The notes under the pieces: generated by a model
The model's database searches: none
Told to the model about the DNA's origin: nothing
What the model saw: the letters and a program-made list of their open reading frames with translations, nothing else
Origin: Aldrovandia affinis
Lineage: Eukaryota > Chordata > Actinopteri > Notacanthiformes > Halosauridae
Direction: 5' to 3'
Assembly: GCA_029706075.1 (NCBI GenBank)
Contig: JAINUG010000020.1
Span: 8,303,546-8,367,545, forward strand
DNA: 64,000 bases
Position numbers and translations under genes: made by a program
In this document: positions 27,901-58,300 of the stretch, piece after piece
How positions within the stretch are numbered: position 1 is the first letter of the stretch
How the letters are laid out: the number at the start of each line of letters is the position of its first letter

Positions 27901-30900
27901 CTGGCTCTTCTCCAGGAGCTTGGGCTGGAACGGCAGGCCGAAGTGTGGCATGGAGGTCACCTTCACCGGTGCCACTGGCTTCTCCTGCAGCACGAGACAG
28001 CAAAGCTTTACCAAACCGGCCTCTAGGAACAATGACTAACAATATTCCATTTACCGAACACACATTGTCAGTCCACCGCGACTGTTCAAGTAATGTTTTG
28101 CATTTGTGGCTTAACTTTAAATGCATGAAGACCATATATATTAGTATAGGAAGAAGATTAAGAGCCCAGTGGGCACTAGGCACACTCACCACCTCCACCC
28201 TGCGCTCGACGCGTAAGCGGTTCTTCAGGGCGAACGCTGGGGATTCCGGGACCGTGGGGTTCTGCACCCGCTTCTCCGGAACGCCCTGAGAAACAGGACC
28301 GTCAGAAAACAGAGCATCAGCAAACCGACATGAACATCTGCTGGACTGCACCAATCAGACAGGAAAATTAAGGCAAACTACTTTAATGGAGCAATTCACA
28401 GATGCAGAGTGGCTAACAATTTTAGCCTTCAATTTGAAGTGTTGATGGCTGACATGCTAGCCTTACAGCACTGTGGCTAAATTCTGCAGTTAATACAGGA
28501 GTGGCTTGCATGTTTGGCATACAGTTGCAGGGCTTCATGGATCACTGCTGCCAAGTGCATTTATCCACAACAATTTGGGGGCCAATTCCCCCCTTTTTTA
28601 ATTTTTTTAATTCATTGACTGAACTTGATGGAATTCACCCACCCCCACAACATGATTTACTCATTACTATATTTATGAGCCTGTAGACCAATGGGGGGGG
28701 GCATGGTTAATACATACGCCATTTAGAAGACGCTTTTATGCAAAGCGACTTACAGTAGTGAATGGATACATTTTCAGTATATGTGGCCCCAGTGGGGATT
28801 GAACCCACAACCTAAGCGTTGCCAACGCTGTGCTCTACCAACTGAGCCACAGAGAACCACTACATCAGGAGCCACCCCGCCCACTAGTCGAGGGAGTTTG
28901 AGGTACATACCACCACATCTTCAAGGATGCGGTGTGGGAAGGGCCGGGAATGGAAGGTGTGGTCTTGGGGCTCTTCGGGCTTTCTGCTGGCCTGCCGCTC
29001 CTGAATGCGCCGCTCCACTTCCAGGTGGAACTCCTCGGGCTGAGTGGCCTCCTTCGGGGCCGGCTTCTTGGGCACCAGTGCCCCATCCAGGATCCTGCGG
29101 TTCAGCTCCAGTGCCTTGAACTTGAACCTGAGGGGCAGTGGAGATGGACACTCTCACACTGCACGCACACATATCCCATTCCCAGCCCCCCGACACACGT
29201 CGCCCAGTACATATAGGTCAGTGAAGTGGATCCAGTGCCCCAACTCTGGTGCATGTATTCCTGCCAATGGAGACAGCATAAGGATGGGTGGGTAGAGGCT
29301 GTGCGTGTGAGAGAGAAAGAATGGAGGCAGAGTTTAGTGTAATGGTTAGGGAACTGGACTTGTAACAGAGGTTGCTGGTTCGATTCCCAGGTGGGGGCAC
29401 TGCCGTTGTACCCTTGAGCAAGGTACTGAACCTGAATGGCTTCAGTAAAATATCCAGCTGTATAAAAGGATTGCATGTAAAGAAATGTAAAGTCGCTCTG
29501 GATAAGCGCGTCTGAAATGCCTAAAATGTATGCAATGTAAATGTAATGTATGGGTGCAGGCTGGGCGTACAGTCTGATCTTCTCCAGCTCCTCCGCCTCC
29601 ACCTCTTCGCTGCTCTTCACCATCACCGGCCGACTCTTCGGCCTCTTCATCAGCTGTGGTGTGAGGGGGTGGGTGATTTTCAGCTTGTCGTTCTTCATTG
29701 GGGACGGACCTGGGAGGAAACCGCATCAAGTCAGGACACCCACAGGCATGGGTAACCACATTTCACTTCATAGTACCCCTACATACATCTGACCCAATAC
29801 AGGGCCATATATTCGAGCCCTACAAGGCTCCAGACTAACATTTTCCACTGGTGCCACCAACTTATGCAGTCGGCGACACCAGCACACGATTTGGTCACCA
29901 CGGCGCAGCAGAAATAATAAGTAGCCATCTTTTAAATGACTAATTGGGTTCAGACATTTGTATAGATTCGCCGTGACATCTTTAACCCAATACAGCAACC
30001 CACAAAAATGGGGCAGCATCAGCCATATTTCACCCAACGCAGGAGCTTGTAACGGGTTAAGAGCGTGGCGTACCCCTCTCCTCCCGCTGCCGGCTGCGCA
30101 GGTGGTATCGGGCCGGAGTGCGCTGCTGGAACTGCTGGATCTGCTGGGCCATGGGCACGTAGGCCTCGCTCTCCTCGTGCTTGCGCTTGGTGGCCACCGA
30201 CAGGTTGAAGGGCTTGGGAATGGTGGCTCCCCTCACAACCTTGGCCTGAGAGAGAGCGAGCAAGCCAGTGTCAGGTCACAGCAGGGAACACGCCTTCAGG
30301 CACCCACTCCTTTCAGTGTGTGAAAGGAAATCAGGAACTACAGTTGTGGCCAAAAATATTTTCATTTTACCACCACGTCCTAGGAGATTAACAATTCCAT
30401 GAGCAGCAAACTTGTTGATAATTGCAAACTGTGGAAACAGGAAAGCCAAGGTCTCTAGAGATGGCCGTATAGCCTTGAGAACACTTATGTTTTGTGATAG
30501 TAGTTTGACATCAGACAGCTCTTATCTCTTCACCATTGTCAGAGGAACAGGGTAGCAGAACGGACCAATTTCTCATTTTAAAATGGGTAATTGGTTAATT
30601 TACACCATGTGGGCACTTGCAACGTGTCACAGGCACAAAATATTTTTATTTGGATTATTGTTTGACCGTGTGCCGTTGTAAATCAAACAGACGAACGTGT
30701 GAAGACAGTTCTTTCAGAAGATATTTGCGCACACACAAGGCAACTTAAATTACAAACACTGACAGATGACATTGCCCCAGTTAGTGCACAAAGCTAAAAG
30801 GAAAGTCATTATGAACCCCATGTCATAAAGTGGTAGAGACCGTGATGTACAGCTGTGCACTGCAGTGGGTTGGGGGCACTCTTACAGGGGAAGATGGGTG

Positions 30901-33900
30901 CTTGCGGAGTTGGGCGGTGAAGTCCACCTCCTTGTAGACCGCTTCCTCTGGCCCTTCAGCCTGTGGCTTCAGCCTGTCGTCCGTGCGGAAGTGGAACTCC
31001 ACAGGGACCGTGGTCGCCAGCACTGCCTTCCTGACTGGCTGACCTGAGAACAGCACAGGGAGGGCATTTAATCCTGCATTCAGAGAGCTCTCCCACCCCA
31101 GCGCTGGACGAGGGGGACAGTAATGCACTCGATGCAGGGGACAGGCATGCACTCAGTGCGGAATGGATACCGACTTCCTGCCATAGCCGCCTTGAAGCTG
31201 GCCTCGTTCCTCTTCCTCTGGTCGGCTACCCCCTCCTGCAGGGCCTGCATGCGCTCCAGCTCCTGCTGCTCAGAGCTTTTCGGCTTCAGAGAGACGCTCC
31301 TCCTACGAACACATGCACGACAGACCGCTAGCAAACAGATTATAGTTTACAGACGTCTACACTAAGTGCAACGGGGCCTTTTGATCTACAAAAGGCATTC
31401 AACACCAGGTTACAAGGACGGACAATAACACTAAATAAATTGTGAAGCTTGTCAATTCACCCATACATCAGACACAAGAGAGGAATGTGGAGTCAGGTTC
31501 ACAAGTGTGTGCAAAAGCTCACCTGACACCGGACCCGGCCACAGCCACCCTGGTGGGCGGGCGGCTCCGGGCGACAGCTGGAATGCTCCGGCGCTGTGAC
31601 CGGGACAAAGAGCTCCTGGAACAAACAAAAACCCAGCCTCACACACGGTTTGGTCAAGCTGCCTCATGTGAGCCAATCAGCTGACCAGTTGTCCTAAACT
31701 GGCTGGATACACAAACGCTTCAGTGTATGAGAACGTGCCACAGCGGCTCAACTGCCCAAACACTACCTGTGTGCAAATTAACATTCAATCAGCTCTGAGT
31801 GCCAGCCACCTGCATTCACTCACTATCAGGCAGGAAAATAAAGATTTTATGCAGGTTCCAAATCCCACCAGCACACGTGACATGCACTCCGTTCTGTGAT
31901 AGTGACACCCACTGATCACGAATCAGCATTTACCTCCTCCGCCTTACAGTAGATACTGGGACTGCAAACACCTTTGCATTTCTGCAAACAGTAAAATGCC
32001 AATGACTTCTCTCAGACAAAGCAGTGTTTGACCCTGTCGAATTGCAGCGGGTGGTTCACACGCAGGCAGTTGACGAGCGCTCAAACAGCCTAGGGCCACT
32101 CACCTCCGGGGCTTCTTGGTAGGGGGCATGGCACCCACCAGGTGGGGTGGCGGCAGCTGCCTTGCTCCGGTCTTCTGGTCTGACCGCTTCCTTGCGCTTC
32201 AATACCCTGGCGAGAGGTGACACGACGAGTCACTCATCCACATTGGAAGTGTCAGCTTTAACTTATCAGCTACCATTTTTGTTTATTTTAGCACCAGCAA
32301 ACTGGGATAAGGAGCTCAATGTGACTCAGGCCCTTTCCATGCAAAGCAAAGACACGGGGACGCATGCATCAAGCCACTCGGAGTAAAAGATTTGTCTCAA
32401 GTGTTACTTAAATGTAATAATTGGTGACTTTCACTCCTGCACTCAAATTGAAGAATAAATGGGATTTATCGAATTTCTCTGGGGTGGGTTAACCTCTGGA
32501 GCACTCTTAACTTGGCTAGTAGGCAAGACGGCAGAGTTGCGAAGACCGACGTGCGCGCACCTTCCAAGACAGGAAGAATGTTTTATAAATGTTTGAGGAT
32601 GCAGTTAAAACGTTATTGCTTATATCGTAAGAGAATCATCCTTGTCACTGATCTTGCAAAGGATGCAATTTTGCCAGCAGCTTTAAGTAGCGCAGTCACA
32701 GCAGAGATGAGTTATTTTAACACTGCACTTCCTAGCCACAGGAAAATGCAATCATGGAATGCTGAGGATTTGGGAAACTTGTGTTGACCATCAAAGAAAA
32801 GATTTTCCAAAAGCAGATTGGTTCTTCCTCTTTGCAATTTCAGCGGTTGATTACCTCATCCTAATATTTTAAGACCTGTGATCATTGCAAAAACACACAT
32901 AAGAGCTACTCTTGTGACTTACCTATGAGAAAGTGAGCTGCTTGAGAACTACATTTTACTGACCACTAAGCAAAGAAAGATTTCACTCCAAAGTAGTGAA
33001 ATCCCATTTCACTCCCAGGGCCATCAAATTCAACACGAGTCAGTACAGTGAGGTTTGCGCCAACATTTTCCCCAAACTTTCACAAAGGAATTTCTTTATT
33101 AGCTCTGCACACCTCATTGATGCAAGTAATAGTACACTCCAGTTAAAGACTGATTGAATAAGAATGGGCAAAAGTTGAATCCTAATGTGACCCAGAACCA
33201 ACACACGAGACACACCTGACAGGCTGGCGAGAGGGGCCACTGGGCTGCGGGGGGCCAGACGTTGAGGGGTTTCCATTTCCCCATGAGGTCACAATATTAG
33301 AAGGAACTGCAGGACTCGGGGGGTCTTGGTCTTTAATTGAACAGGGGAGAGACATTCACATGCTCATTTAGCCACATGATCAAGACTCCAGACTGACCAT
33401 GCAGGGTGCATAAAACCAGCTCCCTGAAACTCAGTCTAACAGAATTTGTTAAATAGCAAGTCAGATTCATCAGAATATTATGTCAAGCAATTAGAACGCT
33501 ATTCAAACAAAAAAACAACAACATAAGGAACAGGCTCACCTTTGGTGGCACTGCCAGCCCCGAATCTGGGAGACACCACTGCCCTCGGCAGGTCCTTTCT
33601 GTGGGTTCTGCCCAGCGGCTTATCAGTCAATGGTGTTACGGGCGACCCTGGTCCGGACAGAAACTTCGGGTCTGACATCTGGCCTACGGACAAAATAACA
33701 CGTTCGTCATCAACTCAGATCCAGCTCGACTGGCCAAATATGCAGATGTACTAGCTAGTCAAGTTAGACACGCCAAAATAATTACCAGCAACTCCCATAA
33801 AGGAGGAAATGCGAATGTCCCATTGCGGTAACGTAGACTAGCAGTCCATCGTAACCAACCCTGCACCAATCAACCGTAAAGCTATGAAGGCGTATGTTGC

Positions 33901-34062
33901 TTTGATCAAATGGGACCAATTGCGCGATACCATCAACACAAATTTGAGATCTGAATACTTACCAAACCAATTGTCAGCATTGTCATTGTCCAACGAATTG
34001 AAGTCAACATGCGACGGTGCATCATACTGGTAAGCTGCCGCGTTGTCTCGAAGCAGATCCAT
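24958..34062 (-). CDS. tpx2: TPX2 microtubule nucleation factor, complete, 16 coding exons
   Basis: TPX2 is a Ran-regulated spindle factor that binds microtubules and importin-alpha and activates Aurora A. Exons (minus): 34062-33963, 33683-33540, 33330-33216, 32196-32104, 31615-31523, 31302-31175, 31043-30886, 30245-30074, 29709-29571, 29127-28911, 28285-28190, 27984-27811, 27648-27502, 27005-26888, 25750-25584, 25068-24958. They total 723 codons plus stop (human protein 747 residues). Residues 11-32 ([11 protein letters not shown] ... NWF) match the N-terminal Aurora A-binding motif. Family blocks follow: [109 protein letters not shown] and a charged helix, ending [15 protein letters not shown]. 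The 4th exon's acceptor is atypical: the best-placed AG (32207) leads into an in-frame TGA, so a later AG (32197 or 32191) must be used. It is head to head with the laminin gene. Confidence 0.95.
26218..26294 (+). repeat. Internally deleted SINE (head joined to tail)
   Basis: The SINE head (gcctcccgcatggcccagtg ... gtccgacgctgg) is joined directly to its tail (ggataccaaattgggagaaa), missing about 300 bp of body compared with 61477-61860. It lies in a tpx2 intron. Confidence 0.75.
28716..28861 (-). repeat. tRNA-Ala-derived SINE
   Basis: The minus strand reads gtggttctctgtggctcagt, then an anticodon arm with loop ttggcaa (GGC) and a T-arm ggttcaatcccc. It is followed by the tail gtaagtcgctttgcataaaa. 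It is nearly identical to 43609-43756. The attached tail shows it is a SINE rather than a tRNA gene. Confidence 0.85.
29326..29546 (+). repeat. V-SINE-type SINE in a tpx2 intron
   Basis: Its head, body (gtacccttgagcaaggtact) and tail (gtcgctctggataagcgcgt) match the copies at 2062 and 2985. It ends within 25 bp of the tpx2 exon boundary at 29571. Confidence 0.8.
30335..30700 (-). mobile_element. Deleted Tc1-like transposon copy
   Basis: Bases 30365-30640 match 5795-6140 closely, including ggtctctagagatggccgta and accatgtgggcacttgcaac. Only the 5' part of the transposase and its terminal repeat region remain. Confidence 0.8.
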
Positions 34063-34783
34063 CTCCGACCTAGTCTTCCTCTGACAGACCATGAGATTAG
34101 CCAACGCCTGACTCAAAACATTCCTACCATGTAACGTATTCGCTAGCTGCGGCAAACATTCAATTAGTCAACAGGCCAACTACATAATTAGCAAGGACTA
34201 AATTTACGTAAGTGAGCGTGCCAACGTAGCATTTTAGTTGAAGCTAGAAAGCGTCCATTTGGGCTAACTAGCCCACAAAACCATAGACGTTAGATCACAT
34301 GAGATTACCAGTTTAATACGCAAGAAAGCATAGACACCAAATAAATAACAGCCCCGCGAGCAAAAACACGAACCAATCTTGCCCAGGATCATTTCTGGCA
34401 GTTACCTTATCCGACACTTTCTGCAAACATTGAAAGCCTATGGTGCCTAGGTGTGGTTCTCTTTGTTTTTAATTCCAGTTAGGTTGCTACTCATTCATCC
34501 TGTTCCACAGCAAGCTGGGACGTATCTAGTACCGTTAGCCAAGAACGTTAGATATTCTAAACTACTTTCTAACCACAAACATGTATCCAACTAGATAACG
34601 AACGTTAATTGAGCAACCAAGTAAACGGTAGTCAAACAGAACTTACACGATGATAATTGGCCCATACTTTTAGCGCTAACAATACACAACTTCTGGCGAA
34701 ACTAACATGAGCTACTTAGCGAACAATAACTCAAAACGAGGTACATCTGCGTCCGATAAATATAAATGAGCAGGAAGATGTAC

Positions 34784-43368: not shown

Positions 43369-46300
43369 GTGAGCATGGCCTTTTCACCGTTCTCTTAAAC
43401 ACCAAGCAGGGGAAGTCCACTGATCTTACACAGCCATGAGCCTGCACTGTACAGACTGCGAAGCTTAATGCTAGTGGGAACACACCCCTGGTCACATGCA
43501 TTGTCTTGTCTTAGTCTCACAGGTAACACTATGTTACTTCCTGTCACTGTTACTTTCTGTAACTGTTACTTTCTGAACATTCAGGTCTGGCTGTTGTAAT
43601 ATAATAATATACGCCATTTAGCAGACGCTTTTATCCAAAGCGACTTACAGTAGTGAATGCATACATTTTCAGTATATGTGGCCCCAGTGGGGATTGAACC
43701 CACAACCTATGCGTTGCCAACGCTGTGCTCTACCAACTGAGCCACAGAGAACCACGTTGTGTATACTTTTTCCAGGTCTGATTCAGATTTTGAGCTATTT
43801 AACCCCTGTTATCAAACAGCAAAGCTTTCTGCCTTCATGTGCCCATGGTAACATCCCAGGGGGGCTGATTTAGCTGTTGCAACCGCTTACACTTCTGCTC
43901 CATTCACCCGCACTGCAGAAACCTGAGGTCTTATCCAGAGATACTTGCAATAAAAAGTTTACAATACAAACTCACCAAGTAGTCACCGAGTGTGAGCCAG
44001 TGAAGCTAATTCATTCTAAAATCTGTTTCTGTCATTGGATTATTTATACTTACATCTTGGAGAACACACTCCTCCCAACTCTCTCTAGCACTACAACCCA
44101 ACACTGAGCACATGAGTAACACTGACCAATAGAAACATGGCAGAGTAACCCCTGACCCCGCCCCCTGTCTCGCACCCTCAGCACTTTGCACAGCTGCACA
44201 GCTCCTGCCTTCTGAACCCCAGGGCTGCGCAGGGGGCAGCTGTTACCCCTCAACAGGAAACCTCCTCATTGGCCGAGCCTCCTACCTGAGCGCCACTTCT
44301 ACCTGTGGTCTGCAGGGTCCAGAGAGGTACTGCATAGTCAGCCACCTGCAGGTAAGATAAATACACACCTAAACACATAAAACAGGTGCACATACACACA
44401 GACACACACATGCACACACACACACACATAGGTACTGCATAGTCAGCCACCTGCACGTAAGATAAATACACACCTAAACACACAAAACAGGTGCACATAC
44501 ACACAGACACACACACATACACACACACACACACATAGGTACTGCATAGTCAGCCACCTGCACGTAAGATAAATACACACCTCAACATACACAGACACAC
44601 ACACACATAGGTACTGTATAGTGAGCCACTTGCAGGTAAGATAAATACACACCTGAGCACACAAAAACAGATACACATATGCACAGACACACGCACACAC
44701 ACACACACACACGCACACACACAACCATAGCCAGCCACCTACAGGTAAGATAAATACACTCCTGAACAGACAACAACAGACAAAAACACATACTCACAGA
44801 CACATGCACGCACACACAAACCAGTTAATGAACCTTGTCCATGGTTCCCACTACTTTCTGTAGGAGTCGGATAAGTGCTTTCAGTGTGACTCTCGGAGAC
44901 CCTATGACCCCAGCGAATTCAGGAACAGCCATCGCATAGAGAACGTCATCTACCTGAGTGACCGCAACAAGGACACCACCTGGTGGCAGGCAGCAAATGG
45001 TGCTTCCCTGTGTATCTGTGTCTCTGCGTGTCTTCGTATGTCTCTGTGTCTCTATGTGTCTCTGTGTCTCTCGGTGTGTCTCTGTGTTTCACTCTGTCCC
45101 CATGTGTCTCTGTGTCTCACTGTTTGTCTGTGTGTCTCTGTGTCTCACTGTGTGTCTGTGTGTCTCATTGTGTCTCTGTGTCTCACTGTGTGTCTGTGTA
45201 TCTCTGTGTCTCATTGTGTCTCTGTGTGCCTCACTCTGTCTCCATGTGTCTCCCTGTGTCTCTGTGTCTCACTGTGTGTCTGTGTATCTCTCTGTCTCAT
45301 TGTGTCTCTGTGTGCCTCACTCTGTCTCCATGTGTCTCTGTGTGTCTCTGTGTCTCACTGTGTGTCTGTGTATCTCTGTGTCTCATTGTGTCTCTGTGTG
45401 CCTCACTCTGTCTCCATGTGTCTCCCTGTGTCTCTGTGTCTCACTATGTGTCTGTGTATCTCTGTGTCTCATTGTGTCTCTGTGTGTCTAACTCTGTCTC
45501 CATGTGTCTCCCTGTGTCTCTGATTGACTGTGTTAAGGTGAACAGTGTGGTGTGTAGACAGTGTGTAGTGTAGAAATTGTGGTGTAGACAGAGTGAGGAG
45601 TATAGACAGTATCTGGTATAGACAGGTGTATAGCGTGTATTACTGTAGGAGCCTACCTGGATAAAGGAATATGTGATATAATATTTGTGCTCACAGGTGT
45701 GGAGGAAGTCAGTATCCAGCTCAACCTAGAGGCACAGTTCCATTTTACTCACCTCATCATGAAGTTCAAGGTGCTTACTTTTGTGTGTTTGTGTGTGTGT
45801 ATGCATATGCAAATGCCTGTGTGCGTCTGTGTGCTTATGTGTGTTTGTGTGTGTGTATGCATATGCAAATGCCTGTGTGTGTGCATGTGTGTGTGTGTAT
45901 GTGTGTGTGTGCTTGTGTGTGTGGGGGTGGGTAAATGTGTGTTTGTGTGTGTGTTTGTGTATGTGCGTGTGTGTGATGGGTGATGGGGTGGTTAATGTGT
46001 GTGTGTGTGTGTGTGTGTCTGTGCGTGCTTGTGTGTGTGATGGGGTGGGTAAATGTGTGTGTTTGATGGGGTGGGTACATTTGTGTGTGTGATGGAGTGG
46101 GTTAATGTGTGTGTGTGTGTGTGTGTGTCTGTGCGTGCTTGTGTGTATGATGGGGTGGGTAAATGTGTGTGTGTGATGGGGTGGGTACATTTGTGTGTGT
46201 GATGGGGTGGGTAAATGTGTGTGTGTGTGTCGGTGCGTGCTTGTGTGTGATGGGGTGTGTAAATTTGTGTGTGTGCGATGGGGTGGGTAAATGTGTGTGT

Positions 46301-49300
46301 GTGATGGGTGAATTTCATTCATAAGTATTGTCCTGGTGTTGTTGGATCACAGTTACTGCGCTCCACGGTCAGAGGATAAACTCCACGGTCTGACACCTTC
46401 TGACCTCTCTCCAGACATTTCGGCCAGCGGCTATGTTGATCGAGCGCTCTGCAGATTTCGGGCGTTCCTGGAAGCCGTAACGCTACTTCGCCCACAACTG
46501 CACAAGGGAGTTCCCAACGGTCCCAGCCCGCCCCCTGCAGCGCAGTGATGACATCATCTGTGAGGAACGCTATTCCGACATCGAGCCGTCCACTCACGGA
46601 GAGGTGATGGGGCCCAGTCTCTGCTTCTGATTGACTTTGGCTTATTATACAAGCCTTCAACTGAATCAATCTCTCTCTGTCTCTCTCCCCCCAACCCCCT
46701 CTCTCTCTCTCTCTCACCCCCTCTCTCTCTTTCCCCTCCCCCCAGGTCATATACAAAGTGCTTGATCCTGTTATCAATGTCAAAGACCCATACAGTCCTC
46801 AGATTCAAGGTGAGATATACTGTATGTGCTTCAGAGCCAATGAGGTTAAATACACTATATGGCCAAAGGTCAGTGGACACCTGACCATCACACCTATATG
46901 AGCTTGTCGGACATCCCATTCTAAAACCATGGGCATTAATATGGAGCTGCCACTCTTCTGGAAAGGCTTTCCACAAGATTTTGGAGTGTGTCTGTGGGAA
47001 TTTGTGCCCATTCAGCCAAAAGAGCATCTGTGAGGTCAGGCACTGACGAGAAGGCCTGGCTCGCAATCAACGTTTTAATTCCTCCCAAATGTGTTCAATG
47101 GGGTTGAGGTCAGGGCTCTGTGCAGGCCAATCGAGTTCCTCCACACCAAACTTGTCTAACCATGTCTTTATGGACCTCGCTTTGTGCACAGGGGCACAGT
47201 CATGCTGGAACAGCAAAGGGCCTTCCCCAAACTGTTGCCACAAAGTTGGAAGCGCCCAATTGGCTAAGATGTCTTTGTATCCTGTAGCATTAAAAATACC
47301 CTTCACTGGAACTAAGGGGCCTATCCCAAACCCTGAGAAACAGCCCCAGACCATTATCCCTCCTCCACCAAACTTTACAGTAGGCACTAGGCACTATGCA
47401 TTCCGGAAGGTAGCATTCTCCTGGCATCCGCCAAACCCAGATTCGTAAATCAGACTGCCAGATAGTGAAGTGTGATTCATCACTCCAAAGAACACGTTTC
47501 CACTGTTCCAGAGTCCAGTTGCGGCATGCTTTACACCACTCCAGCCGACGCTTGGCATTGCGCATGGTGATGTGAGGCTTGTGTGCAGCTGCTCGGCCAT
47601 GGAAACCCATTCCATGAAGCCCCGACGCACAGTTCTTGTGCTGATGGTGCTTCCAGAGGCAGTTTGGTACTCTGTAGTGAGTGATGCAGCAGATGATAGG
47701 CGATTTTTACGCGCTATGCGCTTCAGCACTCGTCGGCCCCGCTGTGAGTTTGCGTGGTCTACCACTTCGTGGCTGAGCTGTTGTTGCTCCTAGGCGCTTC
47801 CACTTCACAATAATAGCACTTACATCTAGTAGGGCAGAAATTTCCCAAACTGAATTGTGGCAAAGGTGGCATCCTATGACAGTGCCGTTTAAAGTCACTG
47901 AGCTCTTTTACGAACCATTCTGAATTCTAAATGTTTGTCTGTGGAGATTGTATGGCTGTGCTGGATTTTATGCACCTGTTGGCAATGGGTGTGGCTGAAA
48001 CACCTGAACTCAATAATTAGTATGGGTGTCCACTGACTTTGGGCCATATAGTGTACATTCATATATTCCTCACAAATGTATTACTCTTCTTTCTAAAATG
48101 TTATATTGAAATTTGTCAAAAATACAGCTATGCACACTTCAATTTCAGGCCTTAGATGATCAGAACACAACTGTTATCTTTTATCCAAGAAAAATGAATA
48201 AACAAAACAACTTAATCCGCCCTCTCCCTCTTTCTTTGCTTCTTCCCTCTCCCTCCCCCTCTATCCTTCCCTCCCTCCCTCCCGCTCTCTCCTCTGTGAG
48301 TCCTGCTCCAGGCCTGCTGAAGATCACCAATGTGAGGGTGAATTTCAGCAGGCTGCACACGTTGGGGGACAGTCTGCTGGACCGCAGGCCGGAGGTGCTG
48401 CAGAAGTACTATTACTCTCTGTACGAGCTGCTGCTGCGTGGGAGCTGCTTCTGCTATGGGCACGCCTCGCATTGTGCACCTGCGCACACAGCCAACCACA
48501 GCACGGTGGCAGGCATGGTGGGTACAGATACGGACACATATACATATATGTACATGCATGCACACACTCATAGACACACACACACACACATACACGCAGG
48601 CAGATACACATGCTTGCACGCACGCACACACACACACACACATACATAGACACATGCACACACATACAGTTATTCACTGACAAGTTGACAAGTGCGTGCG
48701 TGTGTCAGGTGAACTTATATAAAAACGTATTAAAAAATATATATATATAAATGGGAATATGCTTCATTTAGATTTTGTTCATATTTATTGTGAATAACTG
48801 TATTTTTTGTGTTTGGTAGCATAGTTTTCCAAGGCTATAGACAAATTAAAGAGAACAAATTTACGGATAGATTCAGTAAAACATGTAAAACATAGAAATC
48901 TGCTTCTGCTATCAAACTAATCAGCTAATGTAGCGACACACTGATCACTCTGTCCTTAATGTCTCCCTACACAACATTACACAACGTTTCTCATTGGTCA
49001 CATGGTCACTGTGGTTCATCCTGATTGGTCCTGGCAGATTCATGGACGCTGCGTGTGTGAGCACAACACGGATGGACTGAACTGTGAGCACTGCAAGGAC
49101 TTCCACCATGACCTGCCCTGGAGCCCTGCGGAGAGAGACAACCCACACACCTGCAGAGGTACACTCACCTGTCATACTCACAACCCACACACCTGCAGAG
49201 GTACGCTCACCTGTCATACTCCCAACCCACACACCTGCAGAGGTACACCCACCCTGAGACAAGTTTAACCCACACACCTGCAGAGGTACACTCACCTGAG

Positions 49301-52300
49301 ACAAACTTAACCCCACATCTGCAGAGGTACACTCACCTGAGACAAGCTTAACCCACACACCTGCAGAGGTACACTCACCTGAGACAAACTTAACCCACAC
49401 ACCTGCAGAGGTACACCCACCCTGAGACAAGCTTAACCCACACACCTGCAGAGGTACACTCACCTGAGACAAGCTTAACCCACACACCTGCAGAGGTACA
49501 CTCACCTGAGACAAACTTAACCCCACATCTGCAGAGGTACACTCACCTGAGACAAGCTTAACCCACACTGCAGAGGTACACTCACCTGAGACAAACTTAA
49601 CCCACACACCTGCAGAGGTACACCCACCCTGAGACAAGTTTAACCCCACATCTGCAGAGGTACACTCACCTGAGACAAACTTAACCCCACACCTGCAGAG
49701 GTACACTCACCTGAGACAAGCTTAACCCACACACCTGCAGAGGTACACTCACCTGAGACAAACTTAACCCCACACCTGCAGAGGTACACTCACCCTGAGA
49801 CAAGTTTAACCCCACATCTGCAGAGGTACACTCACCTGAGACAAACTTAACCCCACACCTGCAGAGGTACACTCACCTGAGACAAGTTTAACCCACACAC
49901 CTGCAGAGGTACGCTCACCTGAGACAAGCTTAACCCACACACCTGCAGAGGTACACTCACCTGTCATACTCCCAACCCACACACCTGCAGAGGTACACTC
50001 ACCCTGAGACAAGCTTAACCCACACACCTGCAGAGGTACACTCACCTGAGACAAGCTTAACCCACACACCTGCAGAGGTACACTCACCTGAGACAAACTT
50101 AACCCACACACCTGCAGAGGTACACTCACTTGTCATACTCACAACCTCACACCTGCAGAACTATGCTTGCTTCTTTTCTGAGATACTCATTCAGCCATAC
50201 TTACACACAGCTCAGATACTCACTCACAGCAATTATACAGTGTGGATATTCTGTATAAAGAGAAAGCAACTGTCTCAAGTTTCTCCCTCTACAAGCTGTG
50301 TTACTTCAACTGCTTCCCAGAATGCAAATGCAATGGCCACTCCAGCCAGTGCCACTTCGACCTGGCGGTGTACCAGGCCACAGGGAACGTGAGTGGCGGT
50401 GTCTGTGACGATTGTCTCCACAACACCATGGGCCTCAACTGTGAGCTGTGCAAGCCCTTCTACTACCAGCATCCTGAAAGGGACATCCGCGACCAGGCCG
50501 CATGCATCTGTGAGTTCAACACCCTCACAGGAGCAGGCAGTAATACAGTTACCATTCATTACAGGAAAAAGCACAAACACAGTTAGCATTCATTACAAGA
50601 TCAAGCACAAACACAGTTAGCGTTAATTAAGTTAGCAAGAACACAGGATACACTACCGGTCAGAAGTTTTAGAACACCCCCATTTTCCAGTTTTTACTGA
50701 AATTTAAGCAGTTCAAGTCCAGTGAATAACCTGAAATGGTACAAAGGTAAGTGGTAAAAAAAGTTAGTAAAAAAGTTTCTGAGAGTCAACAGCTTGCGTG
50801 ATAGGTGGCTCACAATACAACAGCTTCAAGCACAGCTTAATACTCTCAGTTTCAACTGTGAAGAGAAGACTTCAAGCTGCAGGTTTGACAGGTCGAGTGG
50901 CAGCACCGCCAGTGGACTACTGAAGACTGGAAGAAGGTCTTATGGACCGATGAATCCAAATTTGAAATCTTGAAATTTTGAAAGGTTTTTGTAGGCCGTC
51001 GAGTAGGCGAAAGGATGGTTCCTCAGTGTGTGACACCAACTGTCAAACATGGAGGAGGAAGCGTGATGTTCTGGGGCTCTTTTGCTGGATCCAGAGTCGG
51101 CGACTTGCACATCTTGAGTGGCTGTTAACCCACGTTAACCCATTACTTGTTCCCTGAAAAGGGCCTTTTTTATATCTCCGAAATTTACATTATTTTTCAG
51201 TTTTTGGTAACCTAAACTTTTTTTTTTAACCTCTGGCAGTTTACCGCTTACCTTTGTACCATTTCAGGTTATTCACTGGACTTGAACTGCTTAAATTTCA
51301 GTAAAAACTGGAAAATGGGGGTGTTCTAAAACTTCTGACCTGTAGTGTATATTCTCATCTTGCATTAAACATTAAACCTGTGACCCCAGAGCTGAGCCAG
51401 AGAAGAACAGGCGATGTAATGTGTTGTGTATGTTCTCTCACCCCCTCAGCGTGTGACTGTGACCCCGCTGGCTCACTGGAGGAGGGTTTGTGTGACAGCT
51501 ACACCAACCCGGCCATGGGCATGATCGCCGGGCAGTGCCGTTGCAAGCCCAACGTCGGGGGGGAGCGTTGTGACTCCTGCAGGGACGGTTTCTTCGGCCT
51601 CAACAGCACCGACCCGCTGGGTTGCCAGTGTGAGTGACTCGGTCTAAGAGACCTGCAGGGTTGCCAGTGTGTGAGTGTCTCATCCAGAGCAACTCGCAGG
51701 GTTGCCAGTGAGAGTGCAGATGTATAGTTAAGTGGGGGGGAGGAGGAAGTTAATGTTGTAAGTACTTCAAAGGCTGTTGGAGTAGTAGTCTCAGCTAGAT
51801 GTGAAACAGCGTTGACAAGTGCGCGCGCGTGTGTGTGTGTGTTTTCCCCCCAGCATGCCAGTGTGATCTTCGTGGGAGTGTCTCTGGTGGGTCATGTGAC
51901 CCAGTCAGTGGAGACTGTTCCTGTAAGAGACGGGTCAGCGGCCGTCACTGTGACCAGTGCCTGGTGAGAACAGGGAAGCTCACCGGCTCCATCGCTCACT
52001 TTAAATCAATCACTCAGCCTGCTACGGTCAACCAAACGCTGGCTTTCATTTTCTTACAGTTGCCTTTAAGTTTGCCCTCATCATAAAATATACAAATTAT
52101 AGATATTTAAACAGAGCCCAGTCTGTCTTATTGGGTGTCGTGCTATTGCATGCATACACGGTTCATTTGGGAACTGTGGATTTTGTTCAGTGTTTGACAT
52201 ATTCATTGGCTTGTTAATCTGTTGTTGTTTTTATGAATCTGCTATCTTCAAAGTCTCAGAACTTTAGGATTTAATAGCGCTGGGAATTGTGCATGAATTT

Positions 52301-55300
52301 GGGTGAGTTGATGCTGACCCCTCCCCTCCCCACCTCGCTGCAGCCAGAGTTCTGGGGGCTGAGTCTGGACATGTTGGGCTGCAGAGAGTGCGCCTGTGAT
52401 TTTGGAGGAGCATACGGTAACAGGTAACACCCCCTCGACATCGCCCACTCACTGAGCCAGTTCATTCTAGATCAGTCCAGTATAGTCTAGTCAGAACAGC
52501 CTTCATTTGACAACAGTGACATCAGCAGTGTCATGAAAGGTTTAAAAATAATTTATAGCTTTAGAGTTAGAAGCAGTGCAGCAAAGAAAATAGCCACACA
52601 ATCACAATTAAAATATCTAATATACAAATGTTTTACTCTTTAATTGTGTATTTGTACATTTTGTGTTATTTAGTCATCTTGCGTACCACTTTTGAAACAC
52701 TTTGAGCACAGCAATCTCGAAATGAGTAAGTAAGCTTATTACCTCTTATGTGACTTTGTTTGGCACTGTCTATTCTGCGAGACCTTTCCTTTATGATCAT
52801 ATTGAAGCACTATGCTTGTATCTGATTGGTTGGTCGTATGCTTGTCTTGCCTGTTTTTTTAGCCTGATCTTTTACTTACCGTTCCAGCATATTCTTCCTG
52901 CTCTTATGATACACACGCATCTTTCCATGGCGTCTTTGTGTATTGCTGTAGATAAGAGGGCCTGCCTAATGCAGGGATTATCTAACTGTCGTGACCTACT
53001 GGAATCTACATATATTTTAACTACATATACAATTATTATATATATTATACATATGTGGAATAATGTATATATTATATAATAATCATATATTACTGAAATT
53101 AAACAACTGCATGGGTTATACTGCACACACAGTTGTTTTGGCACATTTGAAAAACATTTGAAATACATTCAGTACCAGTCAAAAGTTTGAGTACACCTTC
53201 CATCTGGACTACGGCTAAGCGGGCACTTCTTCATTCTTGAGCAAGATAACGACCCGAAACACACCTTGAAGTTGTGCAAGAACTATCTGGTGAAGGGGGA
53301 ACATGGAGGACAACTCAAACTAAGGACCTGGCCTGCCCAGTGTCCAGACTTCAATCCCATAGAACTTGTATGGGATGAACTGGACAGAACAGTCAAAGCA
53401 AAGCAACCCACAAGTGCCTCTGGGAATTGCTGCAGGAGAGCTGGGAAGACATATCGGGTGATTTCCTGCTGAAACGTATTAACCGAATGGCCCGTGTTTG
53501 TGAGGCTGTTATCACAGCAAAGGGTGGCTATTTTGAGGAATCCAAGATTCAAGTTTCAATTACATTTTCTTGAACATTGCTTTGATGTCCTTTTGTTTAT
53601 CATTACATGTGTTTTTTGTAATTTTCAAGTATTTAAAGAAACGTATATGGTGTAAAACATTGTCAATTATGAGATAAACCTAGTTTCCAGCAGGTGTACT
53701 CAAACTTTTGACTGGTAATGTATTTGAAGATGTTTGCCTGCATTTCAATAAGGGGCAGTTTGCTGAAAATTTAGTTGCTCATTAAGTTGGTCATAAGTTC
53801 CGAAATGTTAGGAACATCTGGCCTGATGAATAAAAAATGTTAAATGATAAAAATGGTAGGAGAGAGATTTTTGAAGAGGCATTTCAGCATGTGTTTATCT
53901 CTGTCCGTCCCTCTGTCTGTCCGTGCCCAGGTGCCAGACGGACAGTGGGCAGTGTGATTGTCGCCCGCACTTCGGCGGCCGGCAGTGCTCGGAGGTGCAG
54001 CCCAGATACTTCTGCGCCCCACTGGACTTCTACCAATACGAGGCGGAGGATGCTACAGGCCACGCCCCCAACAGCCCCGCCCTCCCGGTGAGCGAGTGGA
54101 GAGGGGGGAGGGGCGAGGGGGAGGGGCGAGGGGGGGGTAACGCTCCTGAAGTGCTTCAGTTTCAGTTTTCAGTACCAAGTTTACGTTTTTTAAGTAGCAG
54201 AAGCCCCATGGTGTGTTGAAGACTTGATCCAGGCTTGATACAGTGCTGGATACGTTCTAGACTAAACAAAATGGCACCCCTTGGATTGGCTGAGTGACCT
54301 GTACTCCTCATTTGGCTTTATATATTGTCTGTTTCTTAAGTTCTATTCAGAATGTTTAAATGTTGAAATGATTTGTAGAAAATGTGTATAAGGAAGCAGC
54401 CAGCCTAACTGTACATACCCCCCCACCCACATACAGGGGCATCTGAAACCCCCGGCTCCAATGAGCTGCAACGAGCTTCTGAACAATCAGCTGCTCCGGC
54501 GCCGCCGCAATACCACAGACTTGGAGCAGAGGGAAGCACTGAGACAACGCTGTCCTTTGCAGCAGATGGTAAGAACTGCTCAGATTCACTGACCTGTATG
54601 ACATGGGGAACGACTGATTAGATGGGCTTGGTGAGTATGGTAACTCACCTATCCGAGTGATATAAAGATCTGCAAATCTGTGCGTGATCTTTGTGTCATT
54701 GATCCAGTCAGATAGACTAACTCTATATTATCATATATATGCATACTTTTTTTTTTCATGTAAGCATGTTCTTTTTCATTAGGGGTACCTCTCTGGTGCA
54801 GAGACAGCTGAGGTGGGATTACTGTCACTGTGGAATGCTGTGACCTCATGCTTGTGCTCAGTAGCGCGTTAACCTCTGACCCCTGCAGTGAGAGTGCAGG
54901 TGTTTCGCTGAGGCCCGCAGGCTGTGTCTGTGCTGAATGGGGGGATTTACAGCAAATTCCCACACAACCTTATGAAGACTGTGTATCCATAAATGTGACA
55001 GGACAGAAGCTGCCATATGTACTGTAAAATTACGAGTGCCGTGACATGGCAATATTAGGCAATAGATGTGTGTGAAAATATGAAACCTACAATTTTCAGG
55101 ACAATAATTTAAATATTTCTGTAAGTTAAAATACACTAGCAAAATACGTACATGTTTCACTTGCAATTGTATACATATTTTGTAGACTACATGACTAAAG
55201 TTATTTTACAATATATTCATATATGTATATACATGACTATACATTTATATATTCATATAAAATGACTTCTGGTGGAATGGCAATTGGCATTTTAATTTGT

Positions 55301-58300
55301 GTCCTGTTTGTTAATAGAATATAGTCCTTGAGGGGCCTGGGGTGGTGTAACGGTAAAAGCATTCGCCCGGAATGCACGTTGCCCACTGCGGCCAGAGTTC
55401 AATCCGCGGCTACGCCAACCCGGCTCCGGCGATTGGCTGTCCGCCCCAGGGGGAGGGAGAGCCGGCACAAGCTCACCGAGAAGCACAAAGGGCGTCCCTG
55501 TAACATAGGTGGGCGAGTTCCATCTCAGAGGAGGTGGATCATTGCCGGCCTCGGGGTATCGGCCTGACCCGTAGTGACAGGCGGTGGGTTTGTGGGGGAG
55601 GGCGAATTGAAGCAATAGAGGGTACAATTGGCCACCAAAATTGGGAGAAACAGGGAAATCTGGGGAAAAAAAGTCTTTGCATTTTCATATTATAACATAT
55701 TTTCCCTATTTTTTTCTTCTTAGGCAGAGAACTCTCAGACTTTATTTTAAACGGTGGTTTGTAAATAGTGGGAAAATAAATATATCATTTGACACATCCT
55801 ATCTTTTTGTGTGTGTATGTGTGTGTGTGTGTTTGTGTGTATGTGTGTATATGTCTGTGTGTGTGCATGTGTGTATGTGCGTGTGTGTGTGTGTGTTGTC
55901 TAGCCGGACGTACAAAGCATTCACATAGAGAGCCATCCTGGACATAGGGTCACCTGGAGTGGCTCAGGATTTGCCAGGGTCAGGGATGGGGCGGGGCTTG
56001 TCTTCACCATCGACAACATCCCCTTCGCCATGGAGTATGACATCATGCTCCGATACGAGCCAGAGGTGCTTTATGCTGATTGGATTGCCCTTATTCATAT
56101 CTAACCAATCATGATTCTAGTTCTTCTTGCAATACCTCATTGTTAACATTTACATGGAATTTCAATGAGTGCAAGAAAAGCAGCAATGCCGGGCCTAGGT
56201 GTTGCTTTGCTATGCTAACGCGGTGCGGGGCCTGCCTCCCAGGCTCGGCCTCTCTCCCCTGCAGAGGACTGGGAGGCCATCATCAGCATCTCCTCCCTCC
56301 TGCTGTCCTCCAGCCAGCGCTGTGGAAATGTGCTGCCCTCTGAGCAGATGTACACCATCACACTGCCTCACCAGAAACGGTACTTGCCACATTCAAACAC
56401 GACCGCACATGGTCACACACAACACTCAAACACAACCGCACACCGTCACACTGCCTCACTGGAGACGGTACCTGCCGCACTCAAACACGACCGCACAAGG
56501 TCACACACTGCACTCAAACACAACCGCACACCATCACACTGCCTCACCAGAGACAGTACCTGCCGCACTCAAACACGACCGCACACGGTCACACACTGCA
56601 CTCAAACACAACCATACACGGTCACGCTGCCCGGTCTGCCCCACCAGAGTACTACCCCAGAATATCCTACAGATGGACATCCTGTGATGTTGTAAAAACT
56701 CTCCCGGCCAGGTGACCACTCTCTGTGCCTCTGCCTGACCTCCCTGGCCAGTTATTTTAACATGCTTTCACACGCCTCTCGGGAATAGCGGCGGATGCCC
56801 GTGTGTTTGTTCAGAACTAAGGCCCCCATGGCAAATTCCTGCCGTCACAGCTCTGCAGAATAAAGCCATAATTACAGACACCAATCCCTGACTCTCACAC
56901 CGCCAGCAATAACTCTGAACCAGGTTTCCGGATCTCAAGTCTGCTCTGACAGGTCTGGAAAGAGCTGCCCTCTCCCTGTGCAGTGGGGGAAGTTACTGGG
57001 GGTTAAGGGGCAGGAGAGGGGAGGCCAGGGCAGGTCTACACTGGAAAGACAAACAGAGGATAGAGAAGTTCTATCGTGGTTCTTACTGCCACACGTTAAT
57101 GCTTTGAAGGAGCTCTGTGGTATTTTCAGTTGTGTTCTACGTAGTGCAATACAAAAACCATTGGGATGGATAAACTGACACCTTTGTATTTTTTGATTCA
57201 TTCCATTTGTATCTTGATTTTGATATTTTATGGGCTTTATTGAAGATAAACAGATTAATTTTGCTCTGTTGTGTCACCTCCAAAACCCCACCCCTCTGAA
57301 ACCACACCCCTCCAAACCGCGCCCCCCTCTCCAGGTACGTGCGGACGGAGCGGCCCTTCTGCTTTGAGCCCCGCAACACGTACGCGGCGGCGGTCCGCTT
57401 CCAGCGCCGCGGCGTGCCCCAGAGGGACGTTGGCGCCTACCTGCACGCCGACTCGGTGGGTCTGCCGCCGAACCCCTTAAGCCAGGGGTCCCCAATGACC
57501 GGGCCGCACAGAAAGAATAAAAACGTTTTAATTTTTATTTTATTTCCATTTTATTGACTATTGCAGTCTGCAGGGTGTTTTAATTTGAAAAATGACCACT
57601 TCCGTCTGTGCCTCTTTTCGCACTAGTCTCAGTCGCTGTTTTTTTCCATGCACCAATAAATTAAGCCCACAAGCTAACCCTAGCAAAAATGAGTAAAAAA
57701 CAAACATTGCTGGAGAGCTTCTTTGAAAAGGGGGAAAGACCCAATGATGAGACAGCAGAAGACTCCAAGACTGCCAAAAAAGAAAGCTGCATTTAAAAGA
57801 AGTTGAGTTGAGTCACATTTACATTATAAATGTAATAATTAAATTAATAATTAAATGATATAATATGCACTTTATTGTGTTTTGTTATGCGCGTGATTCT
57901 CCCCGGTCTGTGGAAAAATTGTCTTGCATGAAACTGGTCCGTGGTGCAAAAAAGGTTGGGGACCGCTGCCTTAAGCCATTCGTGGTGTGCATTCGTGGGC
58001 CCGTCTCGCAGGCGAGCACACGCTCTCCTCACTGGCGTGCTGTTCGTATTGTCGGCGCACTCCGTCTCCATGATGATATTGCAGCCCATGCCGCTCCAGC
58101 CTGCCTGGCACACACACCGCCACCCGTTCTGCTCCAGAGTGCACCTCCCGTTACCGTGGCACAGGCCAGGGCAGCCATCTGTGAACGAGGGCCGCACGTA
58201 GCCAAACATTACATAGAGCAGCTATTCAAAAGTGGTGCAAAATCAGTATTCAAAATAACATGCACTGCCTTTATGATTCTTGTCATTAATATGGCCATAG

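Follow-up and report, generated by a model that had tools for sequence, protein, structure and literature searches.

A minisatellite built from its own 5' splice junction in an intron of a laminin beta-type gene of Aldrovandia affinis

Introduction

How does a cell choose a 5' splice site when some two dozen near-copies of it follow one another in the same intron? This question is raised by a 64,000-nt stretch of the genome of the fish Aldrovandia affinis (GenBank assembly GCA_029706075.1, contig JAINUG010000020.1, positions 8,303,546 to 8,367,545 of the forward strand; hereafter the window), where one intron of a laminin beta-type gene carries a tandem array of its own exon end and donor. A first-pass annotation had described the array and had likened its units to recursive splice sites. 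We consider the array, with a probability of roughly 0.72, to be a tolerated, junction-derived minisatellite of the type called "mirage" in lancelets, lying in a repeat-rich gene.

The array and its host gene

The host gene is that of a laminin beta-type chain. In our gene model, which joins exons at AG/GT borders with continuity of frame, exons a to k (505 residues), which cover the laminin N-terminal domain and the first laminin epidermal growth factor (EGF) modules, align to mouse laminin beta-1 (PDB 4aqs, E 1e-225), and Pfam agrees. Exon g (exon 8 of the first-pass annotation) ends in CTGCAGAG with GTACAC immediately after, and no gap opens where 49158 is joined to 50321 in the alignment to the mouse protein (Table 1). 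Upstream, exon d has an in-frame TAA at 46478-46480 (SWKP*RYF), at a place where mouse beta-1 has Tyr; this stop may be an allele defect, an assembly error or the mark of a decaying gene.

Intron g is, as the first-pass annotation had it, built of tandem copies of its own 5' junction: CTGCAGAG/GTAC is intact in 24 copies between 49151 and 50123 (24 occurrences of CTGCAGAGGTA, with the donor G running from 49159 to 50120), and Tandem Repeats Finder (TRF) calls a 42-bp unit in 23.7 copies with 91% match over 49140-50129. The same annotation saw gcagag/gtac kept in every unit and a core, made of the exon end and the donor, repeated about 24 times; it gave the unit as 42-43 bp, and the spacings are 39-43 bp. 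The 19 exonic bases AACCCACACACCTGCAGAG, which encode NPHTCR, the C-terminal end of exon g, stand exactly before 16 of the 24 donors, with close variants before the remainder. A chance origin was rejected: the 12-mer CTGCAGAGGTAC has 24 copies inside the array and none elsewhere in the window, whichever strand is read.

Taken from donor to donor, the 23 units have a mean pairwise identity of 90%, with 15 of 43 columns variable; there are 13 identical pairs among them, and the variant TCATACTC recurs in units 1, 2, 20 and 24. Their invariant 12-base core is barely longer than expected from column shuffling (p 0.039, 23 units), and since the units were chosen via an exact 11-mer within that core, the test is biased and the value is weak evidence of selection. 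Selection on the core was accordingly rejected, and the copies are probably not maintained by selection. RNA structure was likewise discarded as a driver (z from -1.98 to +0.47 across four stretches), as was a mobile element: a search of the genome (1.22 Gb, 2576 contigs) with 361 array bases, by a method that omits very common words, gave 12 matches, four of them at the array's own locus and eight elsewhere at 65-73% identity. On the minus strand an open frame of 253 codons (48945-49706) runs through the array, probably as a by-product of unit lengths close to a multiple of three.

Table 1. Features of intron g and of the other junction arrays, in window coordinates (all on the + strand).
Feature	Position	Remarks
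Exon g (exon 8 of the first-pass annotation)	49038..49158	Phase 1 end CAC ACC TGC AGA G; AG/GT borders, frame, gapless PDB alignment
First 5' splice site, GAG/GTACAC	49159..49164	Keeps the conserved protein
Copy 2 donor, GAG/GTACGC (+5 G)	49201..49206	In frame, adds 14 aa
Copy 3 donor	49243..49248	In frame, adds 28 aa
Intron g, whole, 1162 bp	49159..50320	Position and phase common to four paralogues
42-bp minisatellite of exon end and donor	49140..50129	24 intact copies; donor G at 49159, 49201, 49243 ... 50120
Degenerate 25th copy, CTGCAGAACTATGC	50153..50166	Donor lost
Exon h, next laminin exon	50321..50509	Gene model
Second array: 5 copies of exon a end and donor, CCACCTGCAG/GTAAGATAAATAC	44325..44773	Donors 44352, 44457, 44564, 44636, 44745
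Third array, more diverged: 3 copies of GGGTTGCCAGT	51619..51715	Around exon i donor (51630); third copy without GT
Fourth array: 88-bp unit, 3.2 copies, with exon n end and donor	56352..56631	GT at 56380, 56468, 56556

Age of the intron

Four laminin beta-like paralogues of the same genome (B1 to B4, on contigs C402 and C535) share this intron's position and its phase 1, and the array was not found at this matching intron in any of the four. In B1-B3 this intron is 390-531 bp long, and in B4 it is about 0.5 kb. Because the intron is present without the array in all four, the exon end and donor predate the array, and by this comparison of paralogues the intron is the older of the two. The exon end and donor of B1 read CACACCTGCAGGG/GTACGA, and the matching donors of the other three paralogues are GTAAGT, GTAATG and GTGTGT. 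A G at +5 is found in B1 and in copies 2 and 19 of the array, the exon g donor itself having A; judging from this one paralogue, there are hints that the exon g copy may have lost a better +5 base.

Intron gain by tandem duplication was considered and rejected, the paralogues having the intron at the same position and phase. In the model of Rogers an intron is gained through tandem duplication of AGGT (PMC4974935), and a study of that model in ray-finned fishes is cited by PMC3087553. Repeated AG/GT is common to the model and to the present array; in the laminin gene, unlike in the model, the shared position and phase indicate that no intron has been gained.

Do the units act as recursive splice sites?

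The first-pass annotation had likened each unit to a branch point and acceptor followed at once by a donor, the AG/GT layout of recursive splice sites; such sites would remove the intron stepwise. In favor of such ratcheting, every one of the 24 units has AG before GT, and in 20 of them either CTTAAC or TTTAAC is found upstream. The claim that every unit contains cttaac did not hold, the motif occurring in 16 units, tttaac in four, and neither in the other four (copies 1, 2, 3 and 21). Moreover, the A of TTAAC lies only 12-15 nt before the AG, a CAG occurs two bases before that AG, and the tract is weak, with a mean pyrimidine fraction of 0.63 (T 0.18) vs 0.77 (T 0.34) in 22 real acceptors of the gene. 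The good branch site and polypyrimidine tract that should come before AG/GT at a recursive site were thus not found, and an intron of 1.16 kb should need no help of this sort. We do not take the array as evidence of recursive splicing and have set this candidate aside as scarcely credible.

Known arrays of the same kind

Minisatellite-like tandem copies of exon boundaries, named mirages, have been described in the lancelet genes Adh3, the globins BflGb6 and BflGb9, TnC and PGBD5; their units are of 10-160 bp, many with splice signals, they undergo repeat turnover, and regular splicing is reported for them (PMC3087553, PMC3902484). The laminin array agrees with them in having tandem units that span the exon-intron boundary. 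It differs from them in that it lies in a fish laminin gene with up to 24 copies, its clear cases are on the donor side only, and five arrays occur in one gene. Intron 7 of human factor VII has fewer repeat copies than the laminin array; the primary paper on its repeat is reportedly one in PLoS Genet of 2006. In this intron, with its 37-bp repeats, splicing normally uses the most upstream 5' splice site and no other (PMC6627357). The laminin unit is of 42 bp, with 24 copies and the first three in frame, and here too the most upstream donor sits at the conserved end of the exon. Finally, tandem repeats in human segmental duplications likewise span exon borders (PMC2812944); those had RNA evidence and new introns, whereas in the fish the intron predates the array. 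In the literature searched, where lancelet, human and plant cases do occur, we found no junction array from a fish; the search was judged mostly by titles and the starts of abstracts, and subscription papers lay largely outside it.

Choice among the donors

The many near-identical donors to which the first-pass annotation drew attention are indeed there: the cell faces 24 of them in intron g. Donors 1 to 3 keep the reading frame and meet no stop; the donors of copies 4 to 24 (21 of the 23 downstream ones) all lie beyond an in-frame stop. On the reading that we prefer, a stretch of about 42 bp, reaching from the end of the exon across the donor of an old laminin intron, would have been duplicated in tandem and then have grown to about 24 units, with the copy attached to the exon remaining the most upstream donor, beside the whole exon. 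All of the other copies would leave as intron and the mature mRNA would be unaltered; the array could have spread because it was tolerated in this way.

Several points weigh against this view. By a rough score, based on a general table of donor frequencies and blind to context, the exon g donor rates poorly (-0.76), with higher values (3.05) for copies 2 and 19. Some downstream use need not harm, because donors 2 and 3 give in-frame proteins. The lancelet globin paper suggests that the AG/GT signals of the copies might serve as cryptic sites, and in human segmental duplications boundary tandem repeats can yield alternative splicing and new introns (PMC2812944). It may also be that the stop in exon d prevents this gene or allele from yielding a full protein, and then the splicing argument would be moot.

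These points raise the possibility that donor function has passed into the array, the exon donor having decayed and copy 2 being used alone or with copy 1. The array would then be a working donor reservoir, inserting 14 in-frame residues (28 if copy 3 is used), extra cysteines among them, between two laminin EGF modules, and variation in the length of the minisatellite would become variation in the protein. The scores, the open frame through donors 1-3, the +5 G of paralogue B1 (by which it may be the exon copy that has weakened) and the human boundary repeats that can alter splicing are all consistent with such a relay. Set against it are the roughness of a context-free score, the gapless match to mouse beta-1, which favors donor 1, and the factor VII precedent of using the most upstream donor. 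We regard the relay as unlikely; by analogy with the published arrays donor 1 is most likely the one used here, with some chance for donor 2. In two other arrays of the gene the exon's own donor fares well by the same score, tying for best in the array of exon a and scoring best in that of exon i.

Other junction arrays and the donor-side bias

Similar arrays, overlooked in the first-pass annotation, lie at further exons of this gene (Table 1). Just past the window, exon y (64513-64688 when numbered as in the window; locus L039) precedes a 446-bp intron that consists mostly of 62-bp units and has seven donor copies (array at L039 643-1074). Copies of the donor junction are thus present at five of 25 donors (a, g, i, n and y), the 25 having been examined by alignment (22) or, for x, y and z, from TRF positions and the printed sequence; the copy counts of arrays a, i and n include the exon's own donor. 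When each donor was compared with its own intron (22 introns), the scores against the best shuffle were 95 vs 29 for a, 83 vs 34 for g, 75 vs 28 for n and, more weakly, 35 vs 27 for i. All 100 shuffles were beaten by six of 22 donor queries and five of 22 acceptor queries; among these, the matches that cross the border number four for donors (a, g, i and n, the exon i copy being one base below the spanning threshold and counted by eye) and two for acceptors. The latter are marginal, at 23 vs 21 into exon i and 22 vs 21 into exon l (the only flagged acceptor), and we have treated both as chance. At the exon u acceptor there are real repeats of the upstream tract (34 vs 21), ending short of the border. 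Two further arrays, at 45009-45522 and 45778-46311, start 9 nt past the exon b donor and 7 nt past the exon c donor, neither of which they include.

The surroundings are unusually rich in repeats. Tandem repeats of period at least 10 make up 15.9% of the gene and 12.7% of the 10 kb that follow it. By the same measure six further 10-kb stretches of the contig have 0.5-3.4%, 22 kb of paralogue sequence has 2.8% and a set of 30 myosin loci has 3.5%; inside the window the share is uneven, between 0 and 26% when taken 8 kb at a time. Random placement of 15 arrays gave an expectation of 1.64 spanning a donor, with p 0.064 for at least four and p 0.019 for at least four together with no acceptor; the arrays were entered by hand, leaving out the exon i array (unreported by TRF), a 36-bp array after exon z and the later L039 arrays. 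Restricted to the window, three donor arrays were seen vs 1.08 expected (p 0.077).

Such figures could be taken to mean that transcription-linked breakage or R-loops favor tandem duplication at 5' splice sites, so that donor arrays would be a mutational signature and not mere survivors. The clear junction copies at five donors, with marginal matches at acceptors, and the p of 0.019 under uniform placement speak for this; the values of 0.064 for donor arrays alone and 0.077 within the window speak against it, as do the lancelet cases, which occur at both borders. No donor-edge array was found at any of 46 distinct myosin matches (from the 30 locus matches plus 23 more among the 138 listed, counting those inside the loci, with edges given by the hidden Markov model match and not by exact exon borders), where two arrays end 2 nt before the start of a match. 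Nor was one found at any of 24 laminin-related exon loci, at which two arrays reach the upstream edge; loci of minus-strand matches were left unreversed, and those have no array at either edge. Survival, moreover, explains the same bias, because copies that arise downstream of the first donor do not alter the mRNA, and a mutational signature seems to us distinctly improbable. The effect appears to be mostly one of local repeat load, with a modest bias toward donors for which survival can account.

Other features of the window and genome

Within laminin intron o, a minus-strand fragment at 57844-58221 resembles a teneurin EGF exon (PDB teneurin-2, E 1.2e-17). DDE_3 transposase fragments, which we take to be Tc1/mariner-like, lie in laminin introns at 47067-47393 and 53191-53472. 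Minus-strand open frames at 29768-34167 are TPX2-like: one has an Aurora-A binding match just below the Pfam cut-off and two others are without a Pfam match, so that the name is otherwise our presumption. Elsewhere in the genome, contig C2022 contains two adjacent blocks of fn3 exons in which the frames are very long and a kinase domain closes each block; these are presumably two titin genes, a tandem titin pair being typical of teleosts.

Conclusions

The array of intron g is a real and striking example of an already known kind, and mirage-like arrays recur within this one fish gene. With its 24 nearly identical donors, the first three of them in frame, the locus offers a natural test of how the cell picks one.
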